In this document: piece by piece, positions 28,435 to 41,086 of the stretch
How the letters are laid out: every line of letters begins with the position of its first letter
How positions within the stretch are numbered: the stretch's first letter is position 1
NCBI RefSeq assembly: GCF_008704795.1
Contig: NZ_CP023690.1
Span: forward strand, 5,528,501 to 5,592,500
DNA from: Streptomyces spectabilis
Lineage (GTDB): Bacteria; Actinomycetota; Actinomycetes; Streptomycetales; Streptomycetaceae
Length of the DNA: 64,000 bases
Direction of reading: 5' to 3'
The notes under the pieces: generated by a model
The model's database searches: none
Told to the model about the DNA's origin: nothing
What the model saw: only the letters and a program-made list of their open reading frames with translations
Made by a program: the position numbers and the translations under genes

Positions 28435-28689
28435 TCAGCGGCCGGACTGCTGCCACAGCGTGAGCGCGAGCGCCGTACAGGACGTGACGGCGGCGAGCGA
28501 GGGCAGCGGCCACCGGGTCCGCTCCAGGGCGTCGAGGCGTTCCTCGTGCTCGCTGAGGGCCTTGTCGGTCTGGTCGGCGCGCTGCAGCAGCAGGGCCAGG
28601 TCGCCGCGGGTGGTGGCGAACCCCACGTCGACCGAGCGGTGCAGGCGCTCCAGCTCCAGGGCGATGCCGTCGGTGTCAGAGCCGGCCAT
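28435..28689 (-). CDS. Small coiled-coil/membrane protein of the lysis cassette
   Basis: 84 residues: a predicted coiled coil (ELERLHRSVDVGFATTRGDL, ALLLQRADQTDKALSEHEER) and a C-terminal hydrophobic helix (LPSLAAVTSCTALALTLWQQ). GGAGG is 6 bases before the ATG at 28689. It overlaps the holin-like gene by 14 bases. The layout resembles phage proteins that accompany holins or act as antiholins or spanins; the exact role is not known. Confidence 0.65.
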   Translation of the reverse strand: MAGSDTDGIALELERLHRSVDVGFATTRGDLALLLQRADQTDKALSEHEERLDALERTRWPLPSLAAVTSCTALALTLWQQSGR

Positions 28690-28924
28690 GGTCCGCCTCC
28701 TCACCGGGCGGCGGGCCCGTGCGGACGCGCAGCCACGCCGGGAGCAGCCGCTCCACGGCCGGGGCGGACATCAGCCGGCTGAGCGCCCCGGCGACCGCCA
28801 CGGCGACGGCGATGCCGGGCAGGCCGCGCGCCGCGGGGTCGTCCGCGAGCAGCGGCAGGGCGGTGACCAGGCCGAACAGTGTCTGGACCAGGGTGCGCAG
28901 GGCGCGTCGGCCGGTGTCGTTCAT
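28676..28924 (-). CDS. Holin-like small membrane protein
   Basis: 82 residues with two hydrophobic stretches (TLVQTLFGLVTALPLLA and GIAVAVAVAGALSRLM) and a charged C-terminus. It lies directly downstream of the amidase endolysin (11 bases), where a holin gene is expected. Assignment rests on size, membrane topology and position; no sequence signature of a named holin family is claimed. Confidence 0.65.
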   Translation of the reverse strand: MNDTGRRALRTLVQTLFGLVTALPLLADDPAARGLPGIAVAVAVAGALSRLMSAPAVERLLPAWLRVRTGPPPGEEADHGRL

Positions 28925-28935
28925 GGCGGTCTCCC

Positions 28936-29799
28936 TCATGTCCGGGGCACGCGCAGCCGGTCCCAGCTCGCGCGCCCCGGTACTCCGTCGGCGTCCCCGC
29001 CCGCGTATCCGAGCCTGCGCTGCCAGGCCGCGTACGAGAGCACGTCGGCGCCGGTCCACTCGGGCCCCGGCCCGACGGCGTACCGCCCGCAGCCCTCGGC
29101 GACGAGGCGGTGGCCGACTGCGGTGATCAGCGGGCTGCGGCGGCCCGGCACGAAGAACGCGGCGCCGGGGAAGGCCGCGTACGCGGGAGCGGGCCGGTCG
29201 GGGCCGCCGGGCGGGCGCGTCCCGAGCCGCCGGTCGATCCGCGCCCGCATGGCCGCCATCGAGAACGACGGGTCGATCTTGCGGCGGGTCCACTCCTTGT
29301 GCCCGACGACACTGGCGCCGGTCCAGCCGTGGGCCCGGCACAGGGCGGCCGAGAGCCGTTCCACGGCGTCGAGCTGGGCGTCCGGGTAGGGGTCGCGGCC
29401 GTTGCCGAGGTTCTCTATCTCGAAGCCGTAGAACCGGGCGTTGCCGTCTACGGCGTCGGGGCCCGGCCGCGCGGGCGGCGGCTGCTCGGCGCGCACGGCC
29501 GCGAGCGCCGCGGCCGAGCCGTTCCCCGCGTGGTTGGTGCGCCCGTAGCCGAGCAGATGGACGGTGCCGTCCTTGGCGATCAGGCCGAGGCACAGCGGGC
29601 CCGGCAGGCCGGGCAGTCCGTGGCGGCAGGCGGAGAGGCTGTCGGTCCCGGCGGTGTGGTGCAGCATCACGCCGTGCACCGGGCCCCAGGGGCCCTTGTG
29701 GTTGCGGTTGTGGGAGCGCCAGTCGGGGTGCTGCCGGGTGGGGGTGCCTTCGCGGTGGAGGGCGTGGAGGAAGGCGGTGGCGGTCAGGGGGGTGGCCAT
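28936..29799 (-). CDS. N-acetylmuramoyl-L-alanine amidase (endolysin)
   Basis: 287 residues. The N-terminal amidase_2/PGRP domain contains the zinc ligands in HGVMLHHTAG (near 43-52) and VGHKEWTRRKIDPS (near 168-181). The C-terminal segment WTGADVLSYAAWQRRLGY, ADGVPGRASWDRLRVP is the cell-wall-binding repeat common in Streptomyces phage lysins. There is no signal peptide, so release needs the holin-like partner encoded next. It cleaves peptidoglycan stem peptides to let tail particles out of the cell. Confidence 0.9.
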   Translation of the reverse strand: MATPLTATAFLHALHREGTPTRQHPDWRSHNRNHKGPWGPVHGVMLHHTAGTDSLSACRHGLPGLPGPLCLGLIAKDGTVHLLGYGRTNHAGNGSAAALAAVRAEQPPPARPGPDAVDGNARFYGFEIENLGNGRDPYPDAQLDAVERLSAALCRAHGWTGASVVGHKEWTRRKIDPSFSMAAMRARIDRRLGTRPPGGPDRPAPAYAAFPGAAFFVPGRRSPLITAVGHRLVAEGCGRYAVGPGPEWTGADVLSYAAWQRRLGYAGGDADGVPGRASWDRLRVPRT

Positions 29800-29866
29800 G
29801 GGGGGCCTCCTTGGCTCACGGGTGGGGCAAGGCGCGGCGGGCGGGCCGCGGTGGCGGGGCGTCGCG

Positions 29867-30517
29867 TCACGGGATCGGGTCGATGCGGATGTAGCGGGTG
29901 TCGAAGGACGCCTTCGCGTCGGCCTTGTAGGACCGGAACGCTCCCGTCGCCGTGCAGGTCGTGCCGACGTCGAGACCGCTGACCAGGTACTGGGCGGACA
30001 CGGACGTCCGCGTCCCGGCGGTCACCGCGGCGGCCCGCGAGTCGTCCGCGGCGAGGACGACCTGGGTCCCGGCCCGGACGTTGGCGGACATGAAGGAGGC
30101 CGCGGGAGGGGAGCCGAGCGAACGCATGTAGGCGCCCACCGCGATGATCACCTGGCCCGAGGCGGGGACGGTGAAGGAGACGGACAGCGCGCCCGCGCTG
30201 GAGTCCGCCAACGACTCCGTGTAGTCCGTGGCCGTGGTGGTGCCCTCGTCGCGGTTGACGCGGAAGACCGGGACCGGAGCGACCGGCACCCACGCCTGGC
30301 CGGTGAAGTACATCAACCGGCCCGGGACCCCGATCCAGGCGATCATGCCCGCGACCGGGGCGGACAGCTTGGCGTCCCGGGAGGCGGCGTCCTGGAAGCG
30401 CATGACGGTCCGGCCGTCGACCGCCTCGGCCAGGGACTTCAGGTGCGCCGGAAGGTCCGCCGGGTCGGACGGCTGCGGGTAGGGCAGGTTGCTGATGGGC
30501 GTGTACTGGATGGTCAT
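29867..30517 (-). CDS. Tail fibre-like / host-recognition protein
   Basis: 216 residues. The N-terminus has the short anchor motif ISNLPYPQPSDPADLPAHLK common in actinophage tail-tip fibres. The centre has AWIGVPGRLMYFTGQAWVPV, a pattern seen in phage receptor-binding and fibre proteins. The C-terminal half is a beta-rich domain with many Ser/Thr/Ala. It overlaps the upstream small gene by 4 bases. It probably decides the target range of the particle. Confidence 0.7.
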   Translation of the reverse strand: MTIQYTPISNLPYPQPSDPADLPAHLKSLAEAVDGRTVMRFQDAASRDAKLSAPVAGMIAWIGVPGRLMYFTGQAWVPVAPVPVFRVNRDEGTTTATDYTESLADSSAGALSVSFTVPASGQVIIAVGAYMRSLGSPPAASFMSANVRAGTQVVLAADDSRAAAVTAGTRTSVSAQYLVSGLDVGTTCTATGAFRSYKADAKASFDTRYIRIDPIP

Positions 30518-30741
30518 GCGGGGATCTCCTCGCCGGGTCCGGGGTCCTGGTCGCCAGGGGTGTGGGTGGCGGGTGGTTCGGGCAGGCCGGGCACGATCTC
30601 GCCGCCCTCGGCGGGCGGGCCGGGCAGGCGCTGCGGCAGACCGAGGTAGTCGGCGAGCCCGGCCGCCACCGAGGAGGCGAGCTGCCGCAGTTGCGCGGGG
30701 TCGAGGGTCACGGGCACGGGGTCGGGCTGGTGTTCAGACAT
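30514..30741 (-). CDS. Small Pro-rich protein between tail-tip and fibre genes
   Basis: 75 residues: a short helix (DPAQLRQLASSVAAGLADYL) followed by a Pro/Gly/Glu-rich tail. It overlaps both neighbours by a few bases. Its position suggests a tail-tip accessory or chaperone. Not otherwise recognised. Confidence 0.6.
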   Translation of the reverse strand: MSEHQPDPVPVTLDPAQLRQLASSVAAGLADYLGLPQRLPGPPAEGGEIVPGLPEPPATHTPGDQDPGPGEEIPA

Positions 30742-33109
30742 CGCTGTTCTCCTTCACCGAGCGCCAGGTGGCGCGGGACTCGCGCAGCGCCTGGAGCGAG
30801 GGGTGCGTCCGCTTCACGGCGGCGTAGTCGGCGTGGGGCGGGCGAGGCGGGACGGCCGCCGGCGGGTCCGGGGTGAGCCCGGAGTCCTGCGGGACGCCGT
30901 TGGGGCGGGTTCCGCGCAGGCTCAGGGTCTGCTGGACGCCGCCGTCGGCGGTGGCCGCCGTGGTGATGCCGACCACCCAGGCCAGCGTGTCGAGGCGGGC
31001 GCCGGAGGTGTCCTGGATCCGTACGACGTCGCCGAGCTGGACCCGCGGGTCGTACAGCACCTGCACGTCCGCGAGGACCGGGACCGGCAGCTCTCCGGCC
31101 GTCCGCATGGCGGCCGCGAGGTGCCGCGCGGAGTCGAGCTCCTGGACCCAGTCGGTGGCCTCGGCGAAGTACTCCTGACGGCCGTAGAACCGCTCGCTCA
31201 CCGATCCCGGGACGTACGAGACGCCGTGGCGCTCCACCGGGTCCCGGTCGGCCTTGATCCCGACGATCCGGATGGACGGACCGCCCTCCTTGGTGACGGT
31301 GTAGAGCCGGTCCGGGCCGCGGTTGGCCAGGCGCAGCACGACCGCGCCGTCCTCACGCCGCAGGAGCGCGTCGACCATGCCCTTCACCGGGGGCAGGCCC
31401 GCGGCGTTCTGCCGGGCCACGCGGAAGCGCGAGCCGGCGATCCCGGAGTCATCGTCGGTGTCCGGCGGGCCGATGTCGAGTTCGCTCTCGTCGAAGGTGT
31501 ACGACAGCGTGAGCGAGCTGTACGGGGGGATCTCCCGGATCCGGTCGTCCTCGGTCACCGAACTGACGACGGCCTTCACCCCGGACCAGTCCTTGGCGGG
31601 CTGCACGCAGTAGTTGCGGCAGGCGTCGATCTCCTCGGTGACGGTGAGCGAGGCGATCTCCCGTACGGAGGTGAGCGTGAGGTCGGGTGCGGTCGGCGCG
31701 GTCTGGAAGCGGGTGAAGTTGCGCCAGCGGAACCAGCCGTGCTCGTCGACCTCCGCCGTCGACAGGCTGGCCTTGGCGATCCCGGTGATGGCCTCCCACT
31801 GCGAACCGGAGACCTGCGGGATCACCCGCAAGGGCAGGATGGCGTCATCGAGTTCGGCGGCTTTGGTCCACTCGGCGGCCTGGCTGAACCCGGCCTCGTC
31901 GGGGGTGGCGGCCAGACCGCTCGTCACCTGGAGCCCCTCCACGCCGACGGAGCTCTCCATCCGTACGAGACGCAGCTCGGACGCGGTCTGTGCCGCGCGG
32001 TCGTCGGCGAAGGTGAGGGCGTTGCCGCGCCAGAAGTGGCCCGTCGGCGTGGTGATGCACGGCTGCACGGTCGGGAGCACGGTGCCGCCGGAGGCCACGG
32101 TGTCGAAGAACGCGCCGAAGTGCCACACGCCCCGCTGTTCCCGCAGCCAGGCCACGTCCCAGGGCAGGGAGAGCCCGCCCGTCTGCTCTCCCGCGGACAC
32201 GAGCCGGTACGTACCGGCCTGGAAGTCGACCTCCAGGGCCAGCCTGCCCGTCGTCGTGCCCTTGCGGTTGAGGATCAGATCGATGCGGAACTGGTCGCCC
32301 ACGCCCAGGGCGTTGTTGACCCAGGCCTCCACGAAGATCCGGTTGCCGGGCACGGTCACCCGCGCCCTCGGGAACCAACTCGCTGTGACGCGCTCCTGGC
32401 CCGGCGGCAGGGCCGTGGGCACGAACGCCATCTCGTGCGGGGCGCCGGCGCGCGTCCACGTGTAGTGCCGCGGGTCCGGCAGGTCCTCCGGCATGCCGTA
32501 CGGCGTCGCGAACCCGCCGTGCAGCGTGGCGTGGACGAGCGTCAGCGGCTTGCCCGGGACGAATTCGGGCCCGCGCGGCGGCGGCGACGTCAGCATGCCC
32601 GCCTGGCGCAGGAGTTCGTCCACGCACCAGGTGGCCGTGGCCACGGGCCGGCGACGCAGCACCCCCGTGTACGGGCGCGGCAACTGGGCGGGACCGCGCA
32701 GGCGTTCGGCCCCGTCCAGCGCCGTGAGTTCGACGGAGTCGGTGCCCGACACGGCGGACCGGCTGCGGATCGTGCCGCGGAAGGCGGGCAGGGCCGCGCC
32801 GCCCACACCGGCCGTGTGCACCACGGACTGGCCGGGCCGCGCGATGTCGCCGGTGGCGCGCGGGGCCCACGGCGAGTACAGGGCGGGCGCCCCCCTGCCG
32901 TCCCTCCCCGCGACCTGGAGCTGGAGCTGGGCCGCCGAGCTGCCTGCGAACGAGCGCATCGCGCTGGGCAGATCCGTCGCGTACGCGCGCTCGACCTGCC
33001 ACGACTGCACCTGGGCGGAGACGTCCTCGCCGCCGAGCCGGGTGCCGTGCGTCAGGGTGCGCTCGCCCGCCGCGAGCGCGTCCTTGGTGGTGTCGTCAGC
33101 CGGTTGCAC
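30734..33109 (-). CDS. Large tail-tip/minor tail protein (Tal-like hub)
   Basis: A 791-residue structural protein between the distal-tail gene and the fibre. It opens with a baseplate-hub-like segment (GGEDVSAQVQSWQVERAYATD) and contains a concanavalin-like carbohydrate/laminin-G-type middle (HFGAFFDTVASGGTVLPTVQ; ALTFADDRAAQTASELRLVR). The C-terminal part has hub-like strands (QLGDVVRIQDTSGARLDTLA). In siphoviruses the gene in this position encodes the protein that closes the tail tip and carries fibres. It overlaps the distal tail gene by 14 bases. Confidence 0.75.
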   Translation of the reverse strand: MQPADDTTKDALAAGERTLTHGTRLGGEDVSAQVQSWQVERAYATDLPSAMRSFAGSSAAQLQLQVAGRDGRGAPALYSPWAPRATGDIARPGQSVVHTAGVGGAALPAFRGTIRSRSAVSGTDSVELTALDGAERLRGPAQLPRPYTGVLRRRPVATATWCVDELLRQAGMLTSPPPRGPEFVPGKPLTLVHATLHGGFATPYGMPEDLPDPRHYTWTRAGAPHEMAFVPTALPPGQERVTASWFPRARVTVPGNRIFVEAWVNNALGVGDQFRIDLILNRKGTTTGRLALEVDFQAGTYRLVSAGEQTGGLSLPWDVAWLREQRGVWHFGAFFDTVASGGTVLPTVQPCITTPTGHFWRGNALTFADDRAAQTASELRLVRMESSVGVEGLQVTSGLAATPDEAGFSQAAEWTKAAELDDAILPLRVIPQVSGSQWEAITGIAKASLSTAEVDEHGWFRWRNFTRFQTAPTAPDLTLTSVREIASLTVTEEIDACRNYCVQPAKDWSGVKAVVSSVTEDDRIREIPPYSSLTLSYTFDESELDIGPPDTDDDSGIAGSRFRVARQNAAGLPPVKGMVDALLRREDGAVVLRLANRGPDRLYTVTKEGGPSIRIVGIKADRDPVERHGVSYVPGSVSERFYGRQEYFAEATDWVQELDSARHLAAAMRTAGELPVPVLADVQVLYDPRVQLGDVVRIQDTSGARLDTLAWVVGITTAATADGGVQQTLSLRGTRPNGVPQDSGLTPDPPAAVPPRPPHADYAAVKRTHPSLQALRESRATWRSVKENSDV

Positions 33110-33926
33110 CGGTCACCTCCACGAGGTCGATGCCGAAGCTGCGGTACGGCAGCGGGCGGGCGGGGGCGTCGCTGTACCCGGTGACGGACATCAGCGGCAG
33201 TCCGTCGCCCGGTACGCCGTCCGCGGCCCGCTCGCCGCCGTACGTCAGGCACGCACCCGCCAGGGCGAACGTGCCCGCGGTGCCGGGCCTGACGTGCGGG
33301 GTCAGGTACGCGGCCTGGTCGGGGACCGTGGCCGTCACGAGCGGTCCGTTCGCCGTCGCCGAGCCGACCGTGGTGCCGTCGGCCCGCTTGAAGTCGATGC
33401 CGACGGTGCGGGAGGCCGGAACGGCGAGCGCGGTGGGGGCGTGGAACGACACCGGGAGGCCCGCGGTCACCGGGAAGTTCCCGCCGGGGCCCGGCCAGCG
33501 CCAGGCCACCCGGCTCGTGGCGTCGTCGGCGGTGAACGAGAAGACGCCGGTGGCGGCGGAGGTCTCGATGACGGAGCCGTTCGCCGAGACCCGGGACCAC
33601 TGCTGGAGCCCGGCCGCCCCGGAGGGCCCGCGCCCCGCGGCCTGCGCGGGGCCGAGGACGTTGACCGAGCCGGGGTCCACAAGGACCAGCGGCCCGGCGC
33701 CGTCCACGCGCCGCGCGAGCCGGTCGAGGGCCCGCGCGTGGTGCGGACCGAGCAGGTCCCAGCTCAGCTTGACGCGGCGTATCGGCGCCGGATGGCGGGT
33801 GAGGGTGATGCGGCCGGTCAGCGACTTGAACTCGCTGACGCCGAGGTCGGCCGAGCGGTCGAAGGACTTCGCTGCCTGGTCGATTTCGTACATGGCCCCG
33901 GGCGGGCCGATCCAGAGATTGCCCAT
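33096..33926 (-). CDS. Distal tail (Dit-like) protein
   Basis: 276 residues. The N-terminus MGNLWIGPPGAMYEIDQAAK and the RITLTRHPAPIRRVKLSWDL strand pattern are typical of actinophage phage-tail proteins found right after the tape measure. The C-terminal domain (FALAGACLTYGGERAADGVP) is beta-rich. In siphophages this ring joins the tail tube to the tip hub. It fits its position exactly. Confidence 0.72.
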   Translation of the reverse strand: MGNLWIGPPGAMYEIDQAAKSFDRSADLGVSEFKSLTGRITLTRHPAPIRRVKLSWDLLGPHHARALDRLARRVDGAGPLVLVDPGSVNVLGPAQAAGRGPSGAAGLQQWSRVSANGSVIETSAATGVFSFTADDATSRVAWRWPGPGGNFPVTAGLPVSFHAPTALAVPASRTVGIDFKRADGTTVGSATANGPLVTATVPDQAAYLTPHVRPGTAGTFALAGACLTYGGERAADGVPGDGLPLMSVTGYSDAPARPLPYRSFGIDLVEVTGATG

Positions 33927-34009
33927 GGGAAAGCACCTCGTCCAATGGTCGGAGGCTGATGGGTGGGGGCACGGGCGGGGGGCCCGCGGCGTGTGGGTGG
34001 CGCGGCCGT

Positions 34010-35164
34010 CTAGCGGCGGGCGAGCTGCCGCTGCCCGAGGAACGCGGCGCGGGCGATCGCCTGCGAGTCGACCTGGACGACGACGGGCCGCTCGGCGAGC
34101 CGCTCGACGGCGGCGGCGAGGCGGCGCAGTCCGCCGCCTGCGCCCTGCCCGTCGCCGAGCATCCGCTCCAGCCTGCTCAGCGGGATCACCGCCTCGCTCT
34201 CGCCGCGCTCCGCGACGAGCGCGAGGGTGCCGCCGGGGCGGGCCCGTACGACGCCGCCCTCGGCGAGGTGCGGCACGGGGATGCGCGGCAGGTCGAACCC
34301 GAACCCCTTGCCGCCGAGCCCCGGCACCCAGCCCGGCACCTTGAACTTGATCCGGTTCATCGCGCCGATCAGGACGTTGAGCCCCCTCACCAGCTGTACG
34401 ACGGGCGACCGGAAGGCGTTGACGACCCCCGTGAACAGCGGCTTGAGGAACCGCGAGGCCGACGCGGACGCTTCCTTGATGCCGCTCCAGGCGGCGGAGA
34501 TGCCCCGGCGCAGGAGCTTGGCGACCTTGTCCATGTCGACGAACTTCGTGATGAGCGGGGCGAGCAGCGTCATGACGAGCCCGAACGGGTTCGCCGCCAT
34601 CGCGAGGTTCAGCCCCCGCTGCGCGAGGGAGGCGCCCTTGAGCCCCTTGCCGAGCCGCCCCATGGACTTCCCGCCCCGGTCGGCGTTCCGCCCGGCCTTG
34701 CCCACGGACCGCTCCACGGCGTCGGCCTGCCGCTTGACGTCCCGCAGCGCGTCCTTGGCCTTCCCCGCGGAACCCCGGAGCCGGTCGAGCGACGACTTGA
34801 GCTTGTCGGAGCCGCCCTTGGCCTTGTCCAGGGCCCCATCGGCGGACCGCAGCCCGGACCGCAACTTACGCGCGGCTTCGTCACTGCGGGCGGTGGCGGT
34901 GCGGAGCTTGCCGAGGGCCGTGCGTGCGCGGTCGGCGCTGCCACGGAGCTTTCCCATAGCGGTGTGGGCTTGATCGGATCCGCCGCGCAGCTTCCGTACG
35001 GCTTCATCTCCGCGTGTCGCCGCGGAGCGAATGCCGCCCATGGCGGACCCGGCCCGGTCGGCACTCCGCCGGAGGCCGGAGAGGCCCGTTGCGGTCGTTC
35101 CGGTGTTCTTCTTGAGCGTGTGTAGCGCTCCTGACGCCTTACCAAGCGCCGATATCAGAGCCAT
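34010..35164 (-). CDS. Short tail tape-measure protein
   Basis: 384 residues. The first 170 residues are a long Arg/Ala/Gly-rich helical region with repeats of the type LRGSADRARTALGKL. A hydrophobic segment follows (NPFGLVMTLLAPLITKFVDM, near 195-215), then a tail-tip-proximal domain (PHLAEGGVVRARPGGTLALV, near 325, typical of tape-measure C-termini). Tape-measure length sets tail length at roughly 0.15 nm per residue, so a tail near 55-60 nm is expected, much shorter than most Streptomyces siphophage tails. No lytic transglycosylase domain is seen. Confidence 0.85.
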   Translation of the reverse strand: MALISALGKASGALHTLKKNTGTTATGLSGLRRSADRAGSAMGGIRSAATRGDEAVRKLRGGSDQAHTAMGKLRGSADRARTALGKLRTATARSDEAARKLRSGLRSADGALDKAKGGSDKLKSSLDRLRGSAGKAKDALRDVKRQADAVERSVGKAGRNADRGGKSMGRLGKGLKGASLAQRGLNLAMAANPFGLVMTLLAPLITKFVDMDKVAKLLRRGISAAWSGIKEASASASRFLKPLFTGVVNAFRSPVVQLVRGLNVLIGAMNRIKFKVPGWVPGLGGKGFGFDLPRIPVPHLAEGGVVRARPGGTLALVAERGESEAVIPLSRLERMLGDGQGAGGGLRRLAAAVERLAERPVVVQVDSQAIARAAFLGQRQLARR

Positions 35165-35214
35165 GAGTGTTACATCCTCCGATCGGGGGACGCGAAAAAT
35201 CCGCGGTGCACCGT

Positions 35215-35811
35215 TCAGGACAACGCAGAAATAAGACGATTCACCTGTGATTCAAGTCGCTGTACGGCCGTGGACGCTTGGGAGGCACTACGCGAACCGG
35301 CACCGTTCGGTGACGGCTGGGAGCCCAACTCGCGCACCGCGGATCGAGTCCTGGAGACGTGCTCACCGACTGCCCGGGCACGGGAATCGGCCCGTGCGGC
35401 CAGCTGGAACGCGGCATCGGCTCGCTCGCCGATCCGGCTTATCTTGGTGTCGTGGACGTCAATGCTGAGGTCGATTCCCGTGAGGCGTCGCTCCAGCTTT
35501 CGCTCCGTCCGCAAGGGCTCCGAGGTGAACCCGAATTTGCGATCGAGGTAGGCGTCGATCCGGGGCGTAAAGTCCTTCAGCGTGGGCAAGTCCGCCTTGA
35601 CCAGGGTCCAGCCCGAGGAAATAGCGGATATTCCGCCACTCACCAGCGCGGCGACGAGCGCGGCGCCGATCACTTCCGGTTTGAGCGCTACTTGGGCGTG
35701 TTCCAGTGTCTTCGAGGTCTGTTCCGCGTCCTTCTGGACCTCCGCGACGCTCTTCTCAAGTTCGGCCAGGCGCTCACTGGTGTTCGGCTTCTTGTCGAGA
35801 GGGGTCGACAT
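35215..35811 (-). CDS. Unrecognised coiled-coil protein with one membrane segment (cassette gene A)
   Basis: 198 residues: an N-terminal coiled coil (SERLAELEKSVAEVQKDAEQ, then TSKTLEHAQ), one hydrophobic segment (EVIGAALVAALVSGGISAIS, about 50-69) and a long helical C-terminus (RAVGEHVSRTRSAVRELGSQ; QRLESQVNRLISAL). It lies between the tape measure and the divergent membrane-protein gene at 35890, where phage tail operons rarely hold genes. Base composition is less GC-biased than in the tail genes. A cargo (moron) gene is the simplest reading; no function is recognised. Confidence 0.7.
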   Translation of the reverse strand: MSTPLDKKPNTSERLAELEKSVAEVQKDAEQTSKTLEHAQVALKPEVIGAALVAALVSGGISAISSGWTLVKADLPTLKDFTPRIDAYLDRKFGFTSEPLRTERKLERRLTGIDLSIDVHDTKISRIGERADAAFQLAARADSRARAVGEHVSRTRSAVRELGSQPSPNGAGSRSASQASTAVQRLESQVNRLISALS

Positions 35812-35889
35812 GTCGTATATCCCTTGGGTTTAATGGTCGGAGTGCGGCGTCCTGATGTGACGGTCAACTACATGGAGCGAGGCGGCGAT

Positions 35890-36471
35890 ATGCCTGTCAG
35901 AGCGGTTCCGGAGCGGCCTTCCCCTGTTACCTACGTGATGATGTCCTTATGTACGGCAGTTCCCGCTGCACTATTCGGACTGCTCTACTTCATTTATCGA
36001 GAACTCTTCGTCACGGGTGGTTGCGGATCCCGGTACGCCGGTGTCGGCTGTTCCATCGGGCAGGCCTCTCAGGTCGTCCTTGCGATTTTCCTGTTCCCTG
36101 CCTCGATGTTGTGTGTGCTCTTCCTCGAAGGCATTGTGTTCCGGCCCTATCGAAAGGGGCACGAGGCATATCGAGTGATCGTTCCATTGCTGGTGGGATC
36201 AGGTGCCGTGGAACTGTTCGTGGCCGAGACGCCGCTGTGGGGCGCATTGACCACAGCGCTCGCAGGCCTGTTGCTCCTGGCCTTCAGTCGCCCTGTCGGC
36301 GTTCGGGGAATGCTCTGGTCGATCAGCAGGGAGAGATGCGAGGCCTTGGACGTCGACGCCGATGCGGGGCGGTTCTCCCTGGGGCAGAACCTCTTGCTTT
36401 TGCTTGCCAACGCGGCGGGCATGGCGATGGGTCTACTGGCCGCCTATCGGCTGATCTCCGCACTTTCCTAG
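35890..36471 (+). CDS. Unrecognised multi-pass membrane protein (cassette gene B)
   Basis: 193 residues with at least four hydrophobic helices (YVMMSLCTAVPAALFGLLYF; VVLAIFLFPASMLCVLFLEG; IVPLLVGSGAVELFV; LGQNLLLLLANAAGMAMGLL) and a Cys pair in a loop (GGCGSRYAGVGCS). ATG 35890 is chosen because AGGCGG stands about 5 bases upstream; ATG 35872 and 35833 are alternatives. It is the only plus-strand gene within the tail operon. Lines of this gene fall to about 55-65% GC, against about 77% in the tape-measure gene, suggesting separate acquisition. Confidence 0.7.
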   Translation: MPVRAVPERPSPVTYVMMSLCTAVPAALFGLLYFIYRELFVTGGCGSRYAGVGCSIGQASQVVLAIFLFPASMLCVLFLEGIVFRPYRKGHEAYRVIVPLLVGSGAVELFVAETPLWGALTTALAGLLLLAFSRPVGVRGMLWSISRERCEALDVDADAGRFSLGQNLLLLLANAAGMAMGLLAAYRLISALS

Positions 36472-36510
36472 CTGTGCCCTCTCTCAACATGCCCGTCAAA
36501 AGCACCGCGC

Positions 36511-36915
36511 CTATCCGAAGAAGGCGGTCAGCCGTGCGAGGTCGGGACCGGGTGGCGGATCGTCCGGTGCCCCGGCGTGCTCGGGGGAAGCGGAGTCCGG
36601 TCGCGGGATGGGGCGAGGGGCTTCCAGCGGCTCCGCCTCCTCGTCTCGGTTGACCGTCGCGAACATCCAGTTCGCTTCCGACAGTTGGTCCACCGCGTGG
36701 GCCAGGAGGTAGTCCGTCACCGTCCACTCCGCCGCCTCGCCGTGGAGTTCGCGGTGCAGGGCGCTGTCGCGCGGCAGGTGGCGGATCAGGATCGCCAGGC
36801 GGCGGGAGGTGAGGCGGGCGCGGTGCCAGTCCAGGAGGTCGACGCCGTAGTGGCGGAGGAGGTCCGCCTCGAGGGCCTCGGCGTGTTCGTCGACGAGCTC
36901 GCCGAGGCTCAGTCT
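36511..36915 (-). CDS. Tail assembly chaperone extension (gpT-like), made by -1 frameshift
   Basis: 134 codons in the -1 frame relative to the chaperone gene at 36909-37199, overlapping its end. The frame (LSLGELVDEHAEALEADLLR; AEWTVTDYLLAHAVDQLSEA) contains no ATG or GTG for more than 60 codons from its beginning, so independent initiation is unlikely. Ribosomes slipping at G-GGG-GAA (36915-36921) would join it to the first 95 residues of the chaperone, giving a 229-residue fusion. The proportions match lambda gpG and gpGT. Confidence 0.72.
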   Translation of the reverse strand, partial: RLSLGELVDEHAEALEADLLRHYGVDLLDWHRARLTSRRLAILIRHLPRDSALHRELHGEAAEWTVTDYLLAHAVDQLSEANWMFATVNRDEEAEPLEAPRPIPRPDSASPEHAGAPDDPPPGPDLARLTAFFG

Positions 36916-37199
36916 TCCCCCAGGCCGAGCCCCGTCTCCTTGCCGTAGGCGTCGAGGATCGCGGCGATGTCCTGCATGGTCGTCTCGTGCTGGGCGAAGC
37001 GCGCGAACTGCCGCTCGCCCAGGAGGAGCGCGAGCAGACCGTCGACGTCGTTGTCGTCGAGGGCGCGGAGCTGGTGCGCCACCGCGCGCGTCAGCTCGGT
37101 GGGGAGTTCGAAGGTGTCGCCGTCGAGCTCGAAGGCCCAGCTGCGGCCGAGCGCTTCGAGGCGCTGGGCGCGAGCGGCGTTGACGTTGAAGGCGGGCAT
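36909..37199 (-). CDS. Tail assembly chaperone (gpG-like)
   Basis: 96 residues (MPAFNVNAARAQRLEALGRS, then FELDGDTFELPTELTRAVAH) with an acidic C-terminus ending GLGLGED. Such a protein coats the tape measure during tail assembly. It lies between the tail tube gene and the tape measure, as in siphophages. Its last codons form the slippery run that allows the -1 frameshift into the extension frame. Confidence 0.78.
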   Translation of the reverse strand: MPAFNVNAARAQRLEALGRSWAFELDGDTFELPTELTRAVAHQLRALDDNDVDGLLALLLGERQFARFAQHETTMQDIAAILDAYGKETGLGLGED

Positions 37200-37292
37200 G
37201 GGGCTCCTGTCTCCGGAAGAGGGGGTGCGGGGCGGGGGCGCCCGGGCGGGGCGGTAGCCGGGGCCGGCCGCCGCCCCGCCCGGTCCAGCGGC

Positions 37293-37940
37293 CTACGCGT
37301 AGGACTTGTCCTTCATGATCCACTTGGCCAGCTCGCCGTTCGGCCCCTCGAGCGCCGTGAAGGTCACGCCGAGCTTCACCGCCCCGGTCCGGGTCAGCCC
37401 CAGCTCCTCGGTCTCGGTGACCTGGCCGCGCGGGATGATGAAGCGGTACGTGATGTCCGAGCCGTCCTTGAACTCGATGCCCAGGGCGCGCTCGTCCTTC
37501 TGCGGGTTGCTCGGCAGCTGGAACTCGTAGGTGCCGTCGACCACCTTGTCCTGCGGGGGCGTGCCCTCGGAGATCTTGGTCGGCTTGATCTCCGCCGCCG
37601 GGATGCCCATGAAGAAGGCGAGCGTCTGCTTGTTCATCTGCAGGAGCTGGAACTTCACCGTGAGGTCCCGGTCGGAGTAGATGAACCGGGCGGGCGACGC
37701 CGACTGCCAGGTGTCGACGGGGTCGATCTTCTCCTTCTTGTTGAACTTGATCCCGTCGGTCGTGGTGAAGCCCAGGTCCTGCCAGTGCGGGAGCAGCCAG
37801 TCGTCGGTGGTCGTCCGGGGGGCCGGGACCGGGAGCGGCTCTGCGGACCCGACGGGCGGCAGGGTGACCGGGGCGACCAGGACGCGGCCGGTGCCCGCGA
37901 CGCGGATCTGGCCACCGTTGTTGGCGGAGGGGTTGGGCAT
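37293..37940 (-). CDS. Major tail tube protein
   Basis: 215 residues, beta-rich. The N-terminus begins GQIRVAGTGRVLVAPVTLPP and the centre has DWLLPHWQDLGFTTTDGIKF, features of actinophage gpV-type tube proteins. The C-terminal region (VKLGVTFTALEGPNGELAKW) is a tail-tube or Ig-like strand pair. Position between tail terminator and chaperones is the standard siphovirus order. It polymerises into the hollow tube. Confidence 0.82.
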   Translation of the reverse strand: MPNPSANNGGQIRVAGTGRVLVAPVTLPPVGSAEPLPVPAPRTTTDDWLLPHWQDLGFTTTDGIKFNKKEKIDPVDTWQSASPARFIYSDRDLTVKFQLLQMNKQTLAFFMGIPAAEIKPTKISEGTPPQDKVVDGTYEFQLPSNPQKDERALGIEFKDGSDITYRFIIPRGQVTETEELGLTRTGAVKLGVTFTALEGPNGELAKWIMKDKSYA

Positions 37941-38024
37941 GGGAACTCCTTGGTTGCGAAAGGGGTTTCGGGCAGGAAGAAGGCCCCGCCGGAGCAGGCG
38001 GGGCCGGGGCCGGGCGGCGCGGAC

Positions 38025-38432
38025 TCAGGCCAGGCGCAGCCGCAGCTGGACCGTCGCGAGGTAGCGGTTGCCGCGCGGGCGGTTGTAGTCCGGCAGCCAG
38101 CGCGGCCCGTCGGACTCGGCGACGTCGGTGACGACGGCCGTGCCGTGGGCCGTTCCGGCCAGTTCGAGGACGCAGGCCCGGGCCGCGAGGGCGACGGCGT
38201 GCGCCGCCGTCTTGTCCGGGCCGTACGCCTCCAGGTCCAGCAGCGGCTGGTCCAGGTGCTGGTCGTCGACCCAGGCGCCGCCGACGCGGGAGACGAGGAC
38301 GGCCTTCTGGGTGCCGTCGAAACCGGTGGGCGGACGGTTGTCGACCGTCGTACCGGCCAGCTCGGGGCGGTTCTTCAGGAAGTCGACGATCAGGCGTTCC
38401 GCGTCGGGGAAGTCCAGGACGCTCACATGCAT
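38025..38432 (-). CDS. Probable tail terminator / tail completion protein
   Basis: 135 residues (DAERLIVDFLKNRPELAG; KAVLVSRVGGAWVDDQHLDQ; LDLEAYGPDKTAAHAVALAA), a size and pattern of phage tail terminators that cap the finished tube. It is the gene directly upstream of the tail tube. ATG 38432 is used, but AGGGAG lies only one or two bases before it, so the GTG at 38426 (7 bases from that element) may be the real start. A hairpin at 38439-38454 covers the region just upstream. Confidence 0.68.
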   Translation of the reverse strand: MHVSVLDFPDAERLIVDFLKNRPELAGTTVDNRPPTGFDGTQKAVLVSRVGGAWVDDQHLDQPLLDLEAYGPDKTAAHAVALAARACVLELAGTAHGTAVVTDVAESDGPRWLPDYNRPRGNRYLATVQLRLRLA

Positions 38433-38438
38433 GCTCCC

Positions 38439-38454
38439 TTCGCTGGGCAGCGAA
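38439..38454 (-). promoter_or_regulatory. Hairpin just upstream of the first tail gene's ribosome-binding site
   Basis: TTCGCTGCCCAGCGAA on the minus strand (7-bp arms), ending 1-2 bases before the Shine-Dalgarno. It may modulate translation or mark the 5' end of a late transcript. Confidence 0.4.
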
Positions 38455-38641
38455 AAGCGGCAGGTCCGCCACCCCGGTCCGGGGCGCAGCTCTGCCGCTG
38501 CTCCAAGTGTGAGCGAGAGGGTCCGGGGCCGCAACTCACCTCTCTGAGCTGGGGCGTTGGGGTGTGAGTGCCGGGGGGCTCGGCCCGTCTGCGGCCCGCA
38601 CGCGCGTCGACCGGGCGCGTACGAGGTCCTCGGACACGGAA

Positions 38642-38671
38642 AGGGCGGGCCCCGTGAGTGGGACCCGCCCT
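38642..38671 (-). terminator. Hairpin separating regulatory genes from tail genes
   Basis: AGGGCGGG (38642-38649) with CCCGCCCT (38664-38671), with three further inner pairs (CCC/GGG). It lies between the MerR-like gene and the tail terminator in a 279-base gap that otherwise shows no gene. The gap may hold a terminator or attenuator and a separate promoter for the tail genes. Confidence 0.5.
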
Positions 38672-38711
38672 GACCGTCCTGACCGCCCTGACAGCCCGGC
38701 CGTCGCCGTCG

Positions 38712-38951
38712 CTATCCGGCCGCCGCCGCCCTCGCCATCCCGCCGCCGTCCTTGCCCGGCCGTCGCCGTGCCGTCCGCTCCGCCGCGAACACGTCCTCCA
38801 GGCGGTACAGATGCCGCCGCCCCTGGCGCCCCGCCGCCGCGAGGTGGCCGAGCTGCACCCACTTGCGGATGGTCGCGGCGGACACGCTCACCTCGGCCGC
38901 GGCAAGCTCTCCCGTGATGAGAGGGCCGTCGCCGCCCCGCTCCGGGCTCAT
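38712..38951 (-). CDS. MerR/excisionase-like HTH protein
   Basis: 79 residues with a winged HTH: LITGELAAAEVSVSAATIRK, WVQLGHLAAAGRQGRRHLYR (about 11-50), typical of helix-turn-helix domain 17 proteins. The tail is basic. Its ATG overlaps the TGA of the zinc-ribbon gene. As the last gene before the tail genes it may be their activator or architectural regulator. There is no integrase nearby, so an excisionase role is unlikely. Confidence 0.78.
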   Translation of the reverse strand: MSPERGGDGPLITGELAAAEVSVSAATIRKWVQLGHLAAAGRQGRRHLYRLEDVFAAERTARRRPGKDGGGMARAAAAG

Positions 38952-39493
38952 CCGGCGACCGCCTCCGCGCCCTCGAGGACGTGGCGGCACACGGGGTTCA
39001 CGCACATCACGACCGCCCGCTCCGGGAACGCCCGCAGGGACACCGAGTCGCAGGCGGGGCAGCGGCCCGCGACGCGCAGGAGCTGCTCGGGGTCGCCGAG
39101 CGCCCGCGTGCAGCGGTACGTCATGCGCCGTGCCTCGTCGGCGATGTGCGCGGCCAGGTCGGGGTGGTCCGCCACCCGGTCCAGGAGCCCGGCGACGCGC
39201 CGCAGGCGTACGGGGACGGACGCGGCCGGCACCCGGCGGAGCCCGAGCCGGTCGCGCACCGCCTCCTCCAGCTCCACCACGCCGTCGGTGATGTCGCGGA
39301 TCGCGTCCGATACGTACAGGCGGACGGGCGCGGCCGTGCCGCCGACGCGGTTGGCGCCGGGGCGCTCGCGCAGGGGGCGGGACGTGCTCGGGGTCAGCTC
39401 GGCGAGCAGGTCGGGGAAGCGCCGCGCGAGGGCGCCCAGCCACACCGCGGGTCCTTCGCTGTCCCGGAGCGCGGCCGCGGTGGGGGCGCTCAT
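38948..39493 (-). CDS. Zinc-ribbon protein of the tail regulatory operon
   Basis: 181 residues. A helical body contains RLYVSDAIRDITDGVVELEE and RRVAGLLDRVADHPDLAAHI. The C-terminal treble-clef/ribbon has four Cys in CPAC...MCVNPVC (near 148-172). I have seen this type as an unnamed protein in Streptomyces phages. Start ATG 39493 overlaps the WhiB stop (ATGA); the longer frame to 39580 overlaps WhiB. It probably binds nucleic acid; function unknown. Confidence 0.7.
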   Translation of the reverse strand: MSAPTAAALRDSEGPAVWLGALARRFPDLLAELTPSTSRPLRERPGANRVGGTAAPVRLYVSDAIRDITDGVVELEEAVRDRLGLRRVPAASVPVRLRRVAGLLDRVADHPDLAAHIADEARRMTYRCTRALGDPEQLLRVAGRCPACDSVSLRAFPERAVVMCVNPVCRHVLEGAEAVAG

Positions 39494-39777
39494 GCCGCCA
39501 CCGCCCGGCCGTTGCGCCATAACCGGCCCCCGCTGACCCCGTCGAACCAGGTGCGCCCGGGGTCGACCACGGCTTCGCACTCCTTACGGATGGGGCACTG
39601 ATTGCAGGCTCGCAATACCGCGGCGGCTTCGGAGGGGATTCTCGTGAACACGGAGTGTGGGGGGAGATCGGCGCAAGCGGCCGACCTGCGCCAGTCGAGG
39701 TGCTCGCCCCCGGCGCCGGATGGAGTGAAGTCCGGGCTGGTCGGGGCGGGTTGCGGCGACATCGTTGAAGCAGGCAC
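39490..39777 (-). CDS. WhiB-like iron-sulfur regulator
   Basis: 95 residues. The four cluster cysteines are C35, C58, C61 and C67 (C-X22-C-XX-C-X5-C), followed by the WFDGVSGGRLW turn and a basic tail RNGRAVAA. Wbl proteins bind a 4Fe-4S cluster and the principal sigma factor, acting as activators or repressors; phage-borne versions exist (mycobacteriophage TM4). It is the first gene of the operon that runs into the tail genes and is divergent from the XRE gene at 40022. Confidence 0.9.
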   Translation of the reverse strand: MPASTMSPQPAPTSPDFTPSGAGGEHLDWRRSAACADLPPHSVFTRIPSEAAAVLRACNQCPIRKECEAVVDPGRTWFDGVSGGRLWRNGRAVAA

Positions 39778-40021
39778 GTGTAAGCCCTCCCAAGATGTGG
39801 GAACATTCGTTCGAGCGTGACGAACGAGTTCTCAGCGTCGCATGGTGCGTGTGCGCACGCAAGCTGTTGCGGGTCTGACGGGAAGGGTGCGCCGATGGTC
39901 GAACTCACTGGTGCGGTGCGTGGGTTGACGGAATCTCCACGAATGCGTGCGAGCGCGCACACACGGCGGTGCGCGCCCGCTCGATACGCTGCCCACCTCG
40001 CGACGAGGGGAGAGCGATCAC
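39778..40021. promoter_or_regulatory. Divergent control region between WhiB-like and XRE genes
   Basis: No gene seen. It holds a palindrome TGCGTGTGCGCACGCA (39846-39861), an inverted pair CGTTCG/CGAACG (39808-39813 and 39821-39826) and a less regular GTGCG...CGCAC element near 39948. These are candidate binding sites for the XRE or WhiB proteins controlling the tail locus. Confidence 0.5.
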
Positions 40022-40501
40022 ATGCGTCCGAGCTCGGGGGCCACCGCACGCCGGGGCCAAGAGGTCGACGGGGACGCCGAAAGGGACCGTGTCGACGGGC
40101 TTGACGAGTTCGTCGGCTGGATCGAGGGCCTGATCCGCCGCAGGGGCTACGACATCGACAGTCCGCGCGGCGGCGGCAAGTCCAAGCTCGCGGACGACGC
40201 CGGGGTGCACCGGGCGGGCGTCAGCAGGCTGTTGCAGCGGCAGAGCATGCCGGACCTGGAGACGATGCGGCGCCTTGCCGCGGTGCTCGACGTGCCGCTG
40301 CGGGAGATGCTCATCAGGTCGGGGCGGCTCACGGAAGAGGATCTTCCGCTGTCCGGAAACCGGCGGTCGGACGGGGGGCCCGCGGATTACCGGATGAGTC
40401 CGGAGGAGGCCGCGCGGAGAATGGAAGTCCCTGTGGAACTACAGGAGTTGTTCGTGAGGGTGGTGAGGCAGTTCCTGCCGGAGGGCGGTGGCGGTGGGTA
40501 A
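40022..40501 (+). CDS. XRE-family regulator, likely controller of the tail locus
   Basis: 159 residues. The HTH reads KSKLADDAGVHRAGVSRLLQ, RQSMPDLETMRRLAAVLDVP (about 57-97), a Cro/CI-type domain with a longer flexible N-terminus. The C-terminus ends in a short helix region (ELQELFVRVVRQFLPEGGG). ATG 40022 is chosen with GGGGAG about 11 bases upstream. It faces away from the WhiB-led operon, the geometry of a phage-type repressor. Operon partner follows 39 bases later. Confidence 0.82.
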   Translation: MRPSSGATARRGQEVDGDAERDRVDGLDEFVGWIEGLIRRRGYDIDSPRGGGKSKLADDAGVHRAGVSRLLQRQSMPDLETMRRLAAVLDVPLREMLIRSGRLTEEDLPLSGNRRSDGGPADYRMSPEEAARRMEVPVELQELFVRVVRQFLPEGGGGG

Positions 40502-40540: not shown

Positions 40541-41086
40541 ATGGTCAACGCGGGGGACGGGCCGGAGGTTCCGTCGTACGGTGCGCGGGAGGCGGGCCAG
40601 CGGCTCGTGGTCGAGCTCCTTGCCGAACTCGGCGACAAGGTGCGCGAGGTCGGCGCGGAGCGCGTGCGCGTGGTCACCGACGAGGAGGTCGAGAGGGACC
40701 GCGCGGCCTGGTTCCGCGCGGGCTGGCAGGAGCGGGGCCGGGAGCCCGGCACGGGGCACGCGCCGTGCGCGTGCGCCGGACGGGAGGCGCCCGCGGGGAC
40801 CGGCTCCGGCGCCGACCGCACCCACCCGGAGAGGGCCCCGTTCACCACCGCGTACGGCGAGGAGCCCGCGCGCCCCGACGGCCCGGACGTCCCGCGCGGC
40901 TCCGGCTACGGCGAAGACCTCGGTCCCACCCGCGGTTCGGGACACCCGGACACCGAGGGCGCCCCGGTGCGGCGGCTGCGCGTGCGGGAGTTCCCGGAGC
41001 CGGGCCGTCCCGGCGCGGCGCGCCCCGCGCCCGGCGACCCGGGACGCCCGGCCCCCGCACGGCACTTTCCGGACGGCAGGGGCTGA
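40541..41086 (+). CDS. Unrecognised protein downstream of the XRE gene
   Basis: 181 residues. The N-terminal 65 residues are ordered (REAGQRLVVELLAELGDKVR; RVVTDEEVERDRAAWFRAGW), with a CAC motif at about 76-78. The rest is disordered, rich in Gly, Pro, Arg and Asp. GAGGAGGAG stands 7 bases before ATG 40541. It is co-directional with the XRE gene and probably co-transcribed. No domain is recognised. Confidence 0.6.
   Translation: MVNAGDGPEVPSYGAREAGQRLVVELLAELGDKVREVGAERVRVVTDEEVERDRAAWFRAGWQERGREPGTGHAPCACAGREAPAGTGSGADRTHPERAPFTTAYGEEPARPDGPDVPRGSGYGEDLGPTRGSGHPDTEGAPVRRLRVREFPEPGRPGAARPAPGDPGRPAPARHFPDGRG

Follow-up and report, generated by a model that had tools for sequence, protein, structure and literature searches.

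The closest described systems are the F-type tailocins, among which rhizoviticin, whose genes rise in expression after ultraviolet irradiation, is named beside F-pyocin and monocin (PMC10811719). F-pyocins, the Listeria monocin and rhizoviticin each combine a headless siphovirus-type tail with its own lysis genes, and the same combination is found in the locus described here, which lies at positions 28,435-39,777 of a 64-kb stretch (the window, 5.53-5.59 Mb) of the 9.81 Mb chromosome of Streptomyces spectabilis. Compared with those tailocins, the window locus is actinobacterial and known here from its genes alone, carries an exchangeable cassette of a coiled-coil gene (cc) and an antisense gene, encodes a tail-tip hub with a lectin-like insert, and has many relatives at a site between rpoC and rpsL; unlike rhizoviticin, it shows no integrase or replication remnant. 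The same genus harbors contractile injection systems (SLP/CIS), likewise domesticated phage tails, for which tape-measure-like effectors have been reported (PMC13277306). Unlike these, the window locus is of siphovirus type, matches no sheath family and possesses lysis genes. Searches of the open-access PMC literature (preprints and most subscription journals being outside its scope) returned contractile systems of Streptomyces but neither a non-contractile tailocin from this genus nor a description of an effector/immunity module in a tailocin.

We propose that the locus probably encodes a functional, domesticated, non-contractile F-type-like tailocin that would be induced by DNA damage and released by lysis. 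Genes were called from codon-position guanine-plus-cytosine (GC) content, profile scans against Pfam and PHROG, and conservation, and together make up a complete siphovirus-type tail set with lysis genes and without head genes. On the minus strand, the tail terminator (38,025-38,432; phrog_123, E-value 2e-22; start from the gene model) is followed by the major tail tube protein (37,293-37,940; Pfam PF25681, Phage_TTP_17, 2.7e-59; phrog_117, 4e-32) and the two frames of the tail assembly chaperone (36,909-37,199, phrog_10551, 5e-26; 36,511-36,912, phrog_3656, 1e-28), joined by a slippery heptamer GGGGGAA at 36,915-36,921 for a -1 frameshift. This heptamer is present in 119/119 distinct chaperone ends, and the -1 frame after it stays open for 125-177 codons. 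Beyond the cassette come the 384-aa tape measure (34,010-35,164; phrog_3981, 3e-14, and further tape-measure families), the distal tail (Dit) protein (33,096-33,926; conserved cluster 19), which had no match in the profile scans and was assigned by position, the tail-tip hub (30,734-33,109), a small protein known as an open reading frame and without profile match (30,514-30,741), and a fibre-like protein (29,867-30,517; phrog_16452, 1e-14; phrog_7565, minor tail, 5e-7). The lysis end comprises an Amidase_2 endolysin (28,936-29,799; PF01510, 2.7e-20; phrog_880, 5e-61), an 82-aa membrane protein (28,676-28,924; gene model, conserved cluster 24), judged holin-like by eye from size, position and hydrophobicity, and a small protein with a C-terminal hydrophobic helix, also seen by eye (28,435-28,704; phrog_5225, 1e-23, function unknown; conserved cluster 21). 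The same tail gene order was met again in more than 100 deduplicated loci, a recurrence that makes the pattern more than chance.

The initial annotation had described a siphovirus-type tail with its own lysis cassette, and gene by gene this description was borne out. Its claim that all genes lie on one strand holds for the tail and lysis genes but not for a 193-aa membrane-protein gene on the plus strand at 35,890-36,471, which had been overlooked; its gene list, accurate for the tail genes it named, omitted the cc gene at 35,215-35,811 and the WhiB-like, helix-turn-helix (HTH) and zinc-ribbon-like genes at the operon head, and at the lysis end it lacked the 82-aa gene. The tail length of 55-60 nm that it predicted is best regarded as a rule of thumb that leaves the extra coiled-coil protein out of account. 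The absence of capsid, portal, terminase, connector and integrase genes was confirmed, since no convincing match to these families was obtained among the called proteins scanned from 20 to 49.5 kb of the window. The small HTH protein, hth9, matched the HTH families of excisionases and small terminases, though weakly, and the remaining called proteins of this interval matched host-type metabolic, transport or regulatory families or gave no match. A contractile system was considered and rejected, as no sheath family was matched among the scanned cluster proteins.

The hub had no Pfam match and only weak PHROG matches of unknown function, and was assigned from an AlphaFold2 model (predicted local distance difference test score 87), for which Foldseek returned spike and hub proteins of contractile systems, the T5 tail tip and a mycobacteriophage baseplate chain. 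The template-modelling scores normalized by query length were modest, up to about 0.3, so that the assignment is one at the level of fold. Many legume lectins and galectins were also returned, presumably reflecting a beta-sandwich inserted in the hub. At least 189 homologous proteins were found; the organisms named among the 120 matches listed are Streptomyces or Kitasatospora, no phage is named among them, and no phage record matches the hub.

To place the locus among its relatives, we distinguished window-like loci (type A), loci with two tape-measure-like genes and separate Dit and hub families (type B), and loci without recognised lysis genes (types C and D). Tail tube matches were obtained in 77/295 Streptomyces genomes, the source genome included, and close relatives (E ≤3e-44, identity ≥47%) in 53/295, about one genome in five including two split copies. 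In these two (L085 in genome G224 and L088 in G008) the tube match is divided over two frames, and thus some copies of the locus may be decaying. In the class-wide sample (394 genomes of 137 genera) the tube was detected at E ≤1e-20 in 10/394 genomes and 2/137 genera, and the sole match outside Streptomyces, G632, carries prophage-type cluster genes. A scan of a genome collection, limited to the best 80 of 123 relatives from records with organism names, returned nearly exclusively Streptomyces, together with Kitasatospora, Wenjunlia, Yinghuangia, Virgisporangium and Kibdelosporangium. Six plasmid records matched the tube (identity ≤36%), and a sequence search of the PDB with the tube profile gave one weak match, to a phage tail tube (E 0.006).

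Close relatives are consistently headless. Among the 60 loci fetched, those with a close tube have no portal-cluster gene nearby, and the six loci that do have one carry distant tubes of ≤35% identity, so the relatives are not confined to complete prophages. Capsid, portal or terminase genes were likewise not found beside the locus in relatives: a search for four head families, which covered 54 of the 55 genomes with the tail, gave matches in 11, 18, 6 and 16 genomes, respectively, every match lying on a different contig or at a great distance, the nearest on the same contig being about 536 kb away (G108). Headless orthologues in conserved order were recovered in four named species or strains. 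Phage collections contain little that is similar: 22 INPHARED records match the tube, with identity ≤31% among the 20 listed, and a two-motif scan of IMG/VR returned one relative, an 11-kb contig that is itself in the headless order. A tube tree built from 112 rows places a long, fully supported branch between the headless tubes and the two prophage tubes that served as outgroup. The source genome also has a separate prophage-like region (L091, G000:C1:3400900-3420800) with a terminase, an SPP1-type portal and a distant tube (29% identity).

The ratio of nonsynonymous to synonymous substitution rates (dN/dS) between orthologues is mostly 0.1-0.4 for the backbone tail genes, similar to that of the flanking host genes, indicating that the backbone is under purifying selection. 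Higher values were found for the repressor and r6 (0.5-0.8, closest pair), for the 82-aa gene (up to 0.51), and for the Dit and hub genes (0.64-0.83, window against relatives), which have been replaced. By its sequence, then, the locus has gene features of an F-type tailocin, namely a non-contractile tail set, no head, packaging or integration genes and its own lysis cassette, and it is both maintained by selection and distinct from live phages, in support of the reading first put forward in the initial annotation.

These data also bear on two explanations that tie the tail to a capsid. That the locus is a recent prophage remnant which lost its head genes would fit the phage origin of its tail and lysis genes, but is contradicted by the headless order in many species, the purifying selection, the shared chromosomal sites and the near absence from phage collections, and we regard it as highly improbable; recent prophage decay was ruled out by the recurrence, the purifying selection and the lack of head genes nearby. 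It is equally hard to credit that the tail serves a satellite or gene-transfer agent as helper, with the capsid genes located in another part of the genome, for although at least one of the four head families occurs elsewhere in 26/54 tail-bearing genomes, the source genome included, 28/54 have no match to any of these four (other head families were not searched).

The control region lies at the head of the operon. A CI/XRE-like repressor of cluster REP7 (40,022-40,501, plus strand; HTH_3, 5e-8, and phrog_3949, 5e-15, scanned as a longer open reading frame; start from the gene model) lies just outside the cluster and divergent from the tail operon, and its cluster was present in 41/61 loci of the first set. 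The operon begins on the minus strand with a WhiB-like regulator (39,490-39,777; Pfam Whib, 27.4 bits, cut-off 23.6), followed by the conserved protein r6 (38,948-39,445; phrog_1467, 2.5e-8, as a longer open reading frame; start from the gene model), which shows a zinc-ribbon-like motif by eye, and by hth9 (38,712-38,951; HTH_17, 27.5 bits, cut-off 27; phrog_2474, 1e-14). Upstream of the WhiB-like gene, an SOS-box-like site CGAAC-N4-GTTCC (39,800-39,813, minus strand) matches the exact pattern and recurs in relatives. The pattern CGAAC-N4-GTTC(C/G) (CGAACNNNNGTTCS), which we take to be the LexA box of actinobacterial SOS sites, occurs exactly between repressor and operon in 16/35 type-A regions, the window included, where shuffled sequences gave a mean of 0.08 and a maximum of 1. 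The type-A regions being related, these 16 sites are not independent events. Sites with at most one mismatch to CGAACNNNNGTTCG number 5 in the 64-kb window against 3.2 by chance, so that the case for the SOS-like site rests on its conservation. A separate palindrome, GTTGCG-N8-CGCAAC, was observed in 32/78 intergenic regions between repressor and operon (for example in L063 and L033) and is a candidate operator of the conserved repressor. Small proteins with an E...F/Y..GW motif, recognized by eye, are encoded at 40,541-41,086 (plus strand) of the window and by clusters c15, c17, c28 and 45 at various places within and next to the tail loci of relatives.

The stretch between chaperone and tape measure is variable and AT-rich (median GC 0.64 versus 0.70 in type A and B loci), and in these types forms a cassette consisting of the cc gene directly before the tape measure and usually an antisense gene. 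In the window, cc (35,215-35,811, minus strand) was recognized from the position of its open reading frame and from module exchange; its product has a central hydrophobic stretch and is proposed to be a tube-lumen or penetration protein. The antisense gene (35,890-36,471, plus strand) encodes the 193-aa membrane protein, proposed from its homologues and its covariation with cc to act in immunity or self-exclusion. In every locus examined, a cc-type open reading frame was selected immediately ahead of the tape measure. Among 81 deduplicated type A and B loci, the antisense open reading frame has a predicted membrane helix in 44, is soluble in 17, is of the c15 type in 17 and is lacking in 3; in 50/81 it has a homologue in another locus, and these fall into six families. 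Unrelated antisense families are represented, including a DUF3592-like two-helix group of 35 loci (single-linkage BLAST; the L098 member scores 30 bits against the Pfam cut-off of 25.3, the L033 member has no match), the multi-helix family of the window and a soluble family of about 192 aa. The window antisense protein has 18 homologues besides itself in a search of 5.8 billion proteins, the named ones all from Streptomyces, and is nearest to that of the type-B locus L149 (34% identity, tubes 51%). An orphan homologue (56%) was noted at L228 in G239, a genome without a matching tail tube.

Variable effector-like genes with a partner gene are known from pore-forming colicin/immunity pairs and polymorphic toxin cassettes. 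The cassette resembles these in that a variable, effector-like gene is accompanied by a partner gene, in many loci one for an antisense membrane protein, and in the retention of an old partner in one locus (L032); unlike colicin pairs, it sits inside a tail operon, and its toxicity and immunity functions are proposed from sequence. Covariation of the two genes was examined in 61 of 111 deduplicated loci, after loci with no antisense open reading frame, a c15-type one or a low coding score were dropped. Similarity in cc and in the antisense gene was correlated given the tube (partial r 0.61), a value as high in 0/2000 permutations, and the plain correlation was 0.49 (0/2000 permutations) when only pairs with distant tubes were considered, 10 of these pairs being alike in both cassette genes, 3 in cc only and 0 in the antisense gene only. 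Within the 37 type-A loci, the cc-antisense correlation was 0.68, as against 0.14 for hub-cc and 0.22 for hub-antisense. In a control set of 55 loci with all seven genes called, the equally adjacent cc and tape measure gave 0.13, and chaperone-antisense 0.12.

Exchange of the cassette was also evident among close relatives. In 38 locus pairs with tube similarity ≥0.9, both cassette genes were unrelated in 20 and both similar in 6, the antisense gene alone was common to 2 and cc alone to 0, and 10 were intermediate. The window and strain NRRL B-1347 share about 90-93% DNA identity in flanks and backbone except for two blocks, namely the cassette (about 34.95-36.5 kb), which has no match, and Dit-hub-fibre (about 29.8-33.9 kb), with 70-72% identity where matching. 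Two antisense genes are present at locus L032. The first shares 95% identity with its counterpart in L097, a locus with a similar tube and an unrelated cc, and the second shares 50% with its counterpart in L043, where cc is 53% identical to the L032 cc; most simply, this can be read as the arrival of a new cc/antisense pair with retention of the earlier antisense gene. Runs of two or three antisense homologues were found in 4 further loci (5/81 in all), and L040-L041 form a second discordant cc/antisense pair. The partners thus covary and are exchanged together, as effector/immunity genes would be, a pattern that physical linkage alone might also produce. This suggests that the exchangeable cassette is an effector/immunity or self-exclusion module composed of a toxin-type protein and its matching protector.

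The presence of the antisense gene was further compared with that of the lysis genes in 81 of the 111 loci, those whose 3′ end was judged resolved (because the amidase was seen, more flanking sequence had been obtained, or the sequence extended 1.8-2.5 kb or more past the hub). A chaperone-cc gap of 250 bp or more, taken as sufficient for an antisense gene, was found in 56/56 amidase-bearing loci and in 1/25 without amidase, and this one (L053) is a gene-calling artefact in which the second chaperone frame was uncalled. Individual loci add detail: L114, of type A, has no recognised amidase, no gap and no antisense open reading frame and keeps the holin-like gene; L112 has amidase and room (306 bp) with no antisense open reading frame; and L145 has neither room nor antisense open reading frame.

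Several observations weigh against the inducible tailocin and against the role proposed for its cassette. The SOS-like site is lacking in 19/35 type-A and all 36/36 type-B regions. The tool that picked the antisense frames gave a bonus for hydrophobic segments, so that the membrane-helix share (44/81) is biased upward, and the 17/81 loci of c15 type belong to another family, without a membrane helix. The AlphaFold model of the window antisense protein is helical and of poor confidence (61), too poor for a fold search, and homologues of this protein occur without a tail locus. The closest counterpart of the window cc is that of L039 (29%), a locus whose antisense gene is of a different family, and its identity to the cc of L149 is only 27%; cc and antisense gene thus having different nearest loci, the window's own pair is weak evidence. 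Tape measure and Dit also covary (0.80, 55 loci), showing that neighbours can do so and that physical linkage should account for part of the covariation; in the same set, where most pairs share little, cc and antisense gene reach a rank correlation of only 0.17. Loci with type-B end genes and no visible amidase were left out of the lysis comparison, which favours the association, and only 4 changes of the joint lysis/antisense state are seen along the tube tree, single loci included; with so few changes and the unresolved loci set aside, the link is suggestive only.

Small membrane proteins such as HK97 gp15 mediate superinfection exclusion. The antisense protein is like gp15 in being a small membrane protein that possibly acts on tape-measure entry; unlike gp15, it is encoded in antisense orientation, belongs to one of several unrelated families and is paired with a cc type. 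A membrane protein acting with siphophage tape measures has been described (PMC13190303), and together with the orphan homologue in G239 this lends some weight to the cassette being an anti-phage moron, in which the antisense protein blocks siphophage genome entry, cc is merely structural and the tail itself stands as interpreted. We consider this rather unlikely, because the antisense type follows the neighbouring cc type more than the backbone, loci without lysis genes have no antisense room, and PADLOC gave no match for the three antisense proteins tested. A defence system was likewise rejected for want of a PADLOC match to the cassette proteins tested; weak matches of tape measures to the JetC, ZorA and LmuB models look like shared coiled coil. 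Streptomyces contractile systems, some of them cytoplasmic, act in cell death and development, and type C and D relatives, having no recognised lysis genes, look intracellular. A domesticated tail that acts inside the colony, in programmed lysis or development, is nevertheless an unlikely account of types A and B, whose own lysis genes (endolysin and holin-like), swapped tip modules and exchangeable cassette are what would be expected of particles meeting varied targets.

For the tailocin that we favor, the following course of events can be envisaged from the gene and fold assignments. DNA damage would relieve LexA and the divergent CI-like repressor, a step proposed because of the SOS-like box, and the operon would be expressed; tails would assemble in the cytoplasm at a length set by the 384-aa tape measure, and amidase and holin-like proteins would burst the hypha to free these short tails. 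The hub and fibre tip would then bind cell-wall glycans of related actinobacteria, against which we infer an antagonistic role, and the tape measure and cc would enter the target membrane and depolarise it. Less certainly, cc would be the penetrating protein, and the resident antisense protein would neutralise the matching type, sparing clonemates. The broader proposal of a released headless tail with a polymorphic cassette, in which cc is swapped together with its cognate antisense immunity protein, kin are discriminated both at the receptor and within the envelope, the immunity gene finds no room in lineages that lack lysis genes, and old immunity genes may persist after their cassettes have been displaced, is in our estimation evenly balanced between right and wrong.

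Relatives occupy recurrent chromosomal sites. Genes rpsL/rpsG/fusA or rpoB/rpoC adjoin the locus in 25/55 tail-bearing genomes (within the fetched 20 kb). When type-B loci were extended downstream, 13/15 reached rpoC (three with one extra gene first), with rpsL or rpsG on the opposite side, so that the type-B cluster sits between rpoC and rpsL; an amidase was present in 15/15. The source genome has a single 175-aa gene between rpoC and rpsL (L193), its tail locus therefore lying elsewhere, at a site common to S. lasiicapitis, S. aureoverticillatus, S. typhae and NRRL B-1347, and S. aureoverticillatus and NRRL B-1347 have two tail loci each. In type B (for example L063, L073 and L136), the consecutive tape-measure-like genes encode about 400 and 427 aa and are accompanied by one to three tandem fibre-like genes, and a subset (cluster 27; L062, L063, L071, L073 and others) has an antisense protein of about 275 aa, possibly ATP-grasp-like by eye, between regulator and tail terminator. 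Type C (L038, L120-L122, L124-L130, L140) and type D (L053-L058, L152, L156-L158, L163-L166, L170) are headless tails without recognised lysis genes or antisense room and possibly intracellular; many type-D loci are flanked by stomatin-like or trypsin-like genes and a DnaE-like polymerase gene, named by eye.

In Gram-negatives, self-resistance to tailocins is ascribed in a review to surface polysaccharide to which the producer's own tailocin does not bind (PMC12090994). If our reading is true, Streptomyces, the best-known makers of antibiotics, also make non-contractile tailocins, and the cassette would represent the first immunity system known to us that is carried by a tailocin. It makes testable how tail-based killers spare their kin and what role the tape-measure region plays in the target membrane, and the rpoC-rpsL site offers an easy handle for finding such loci.

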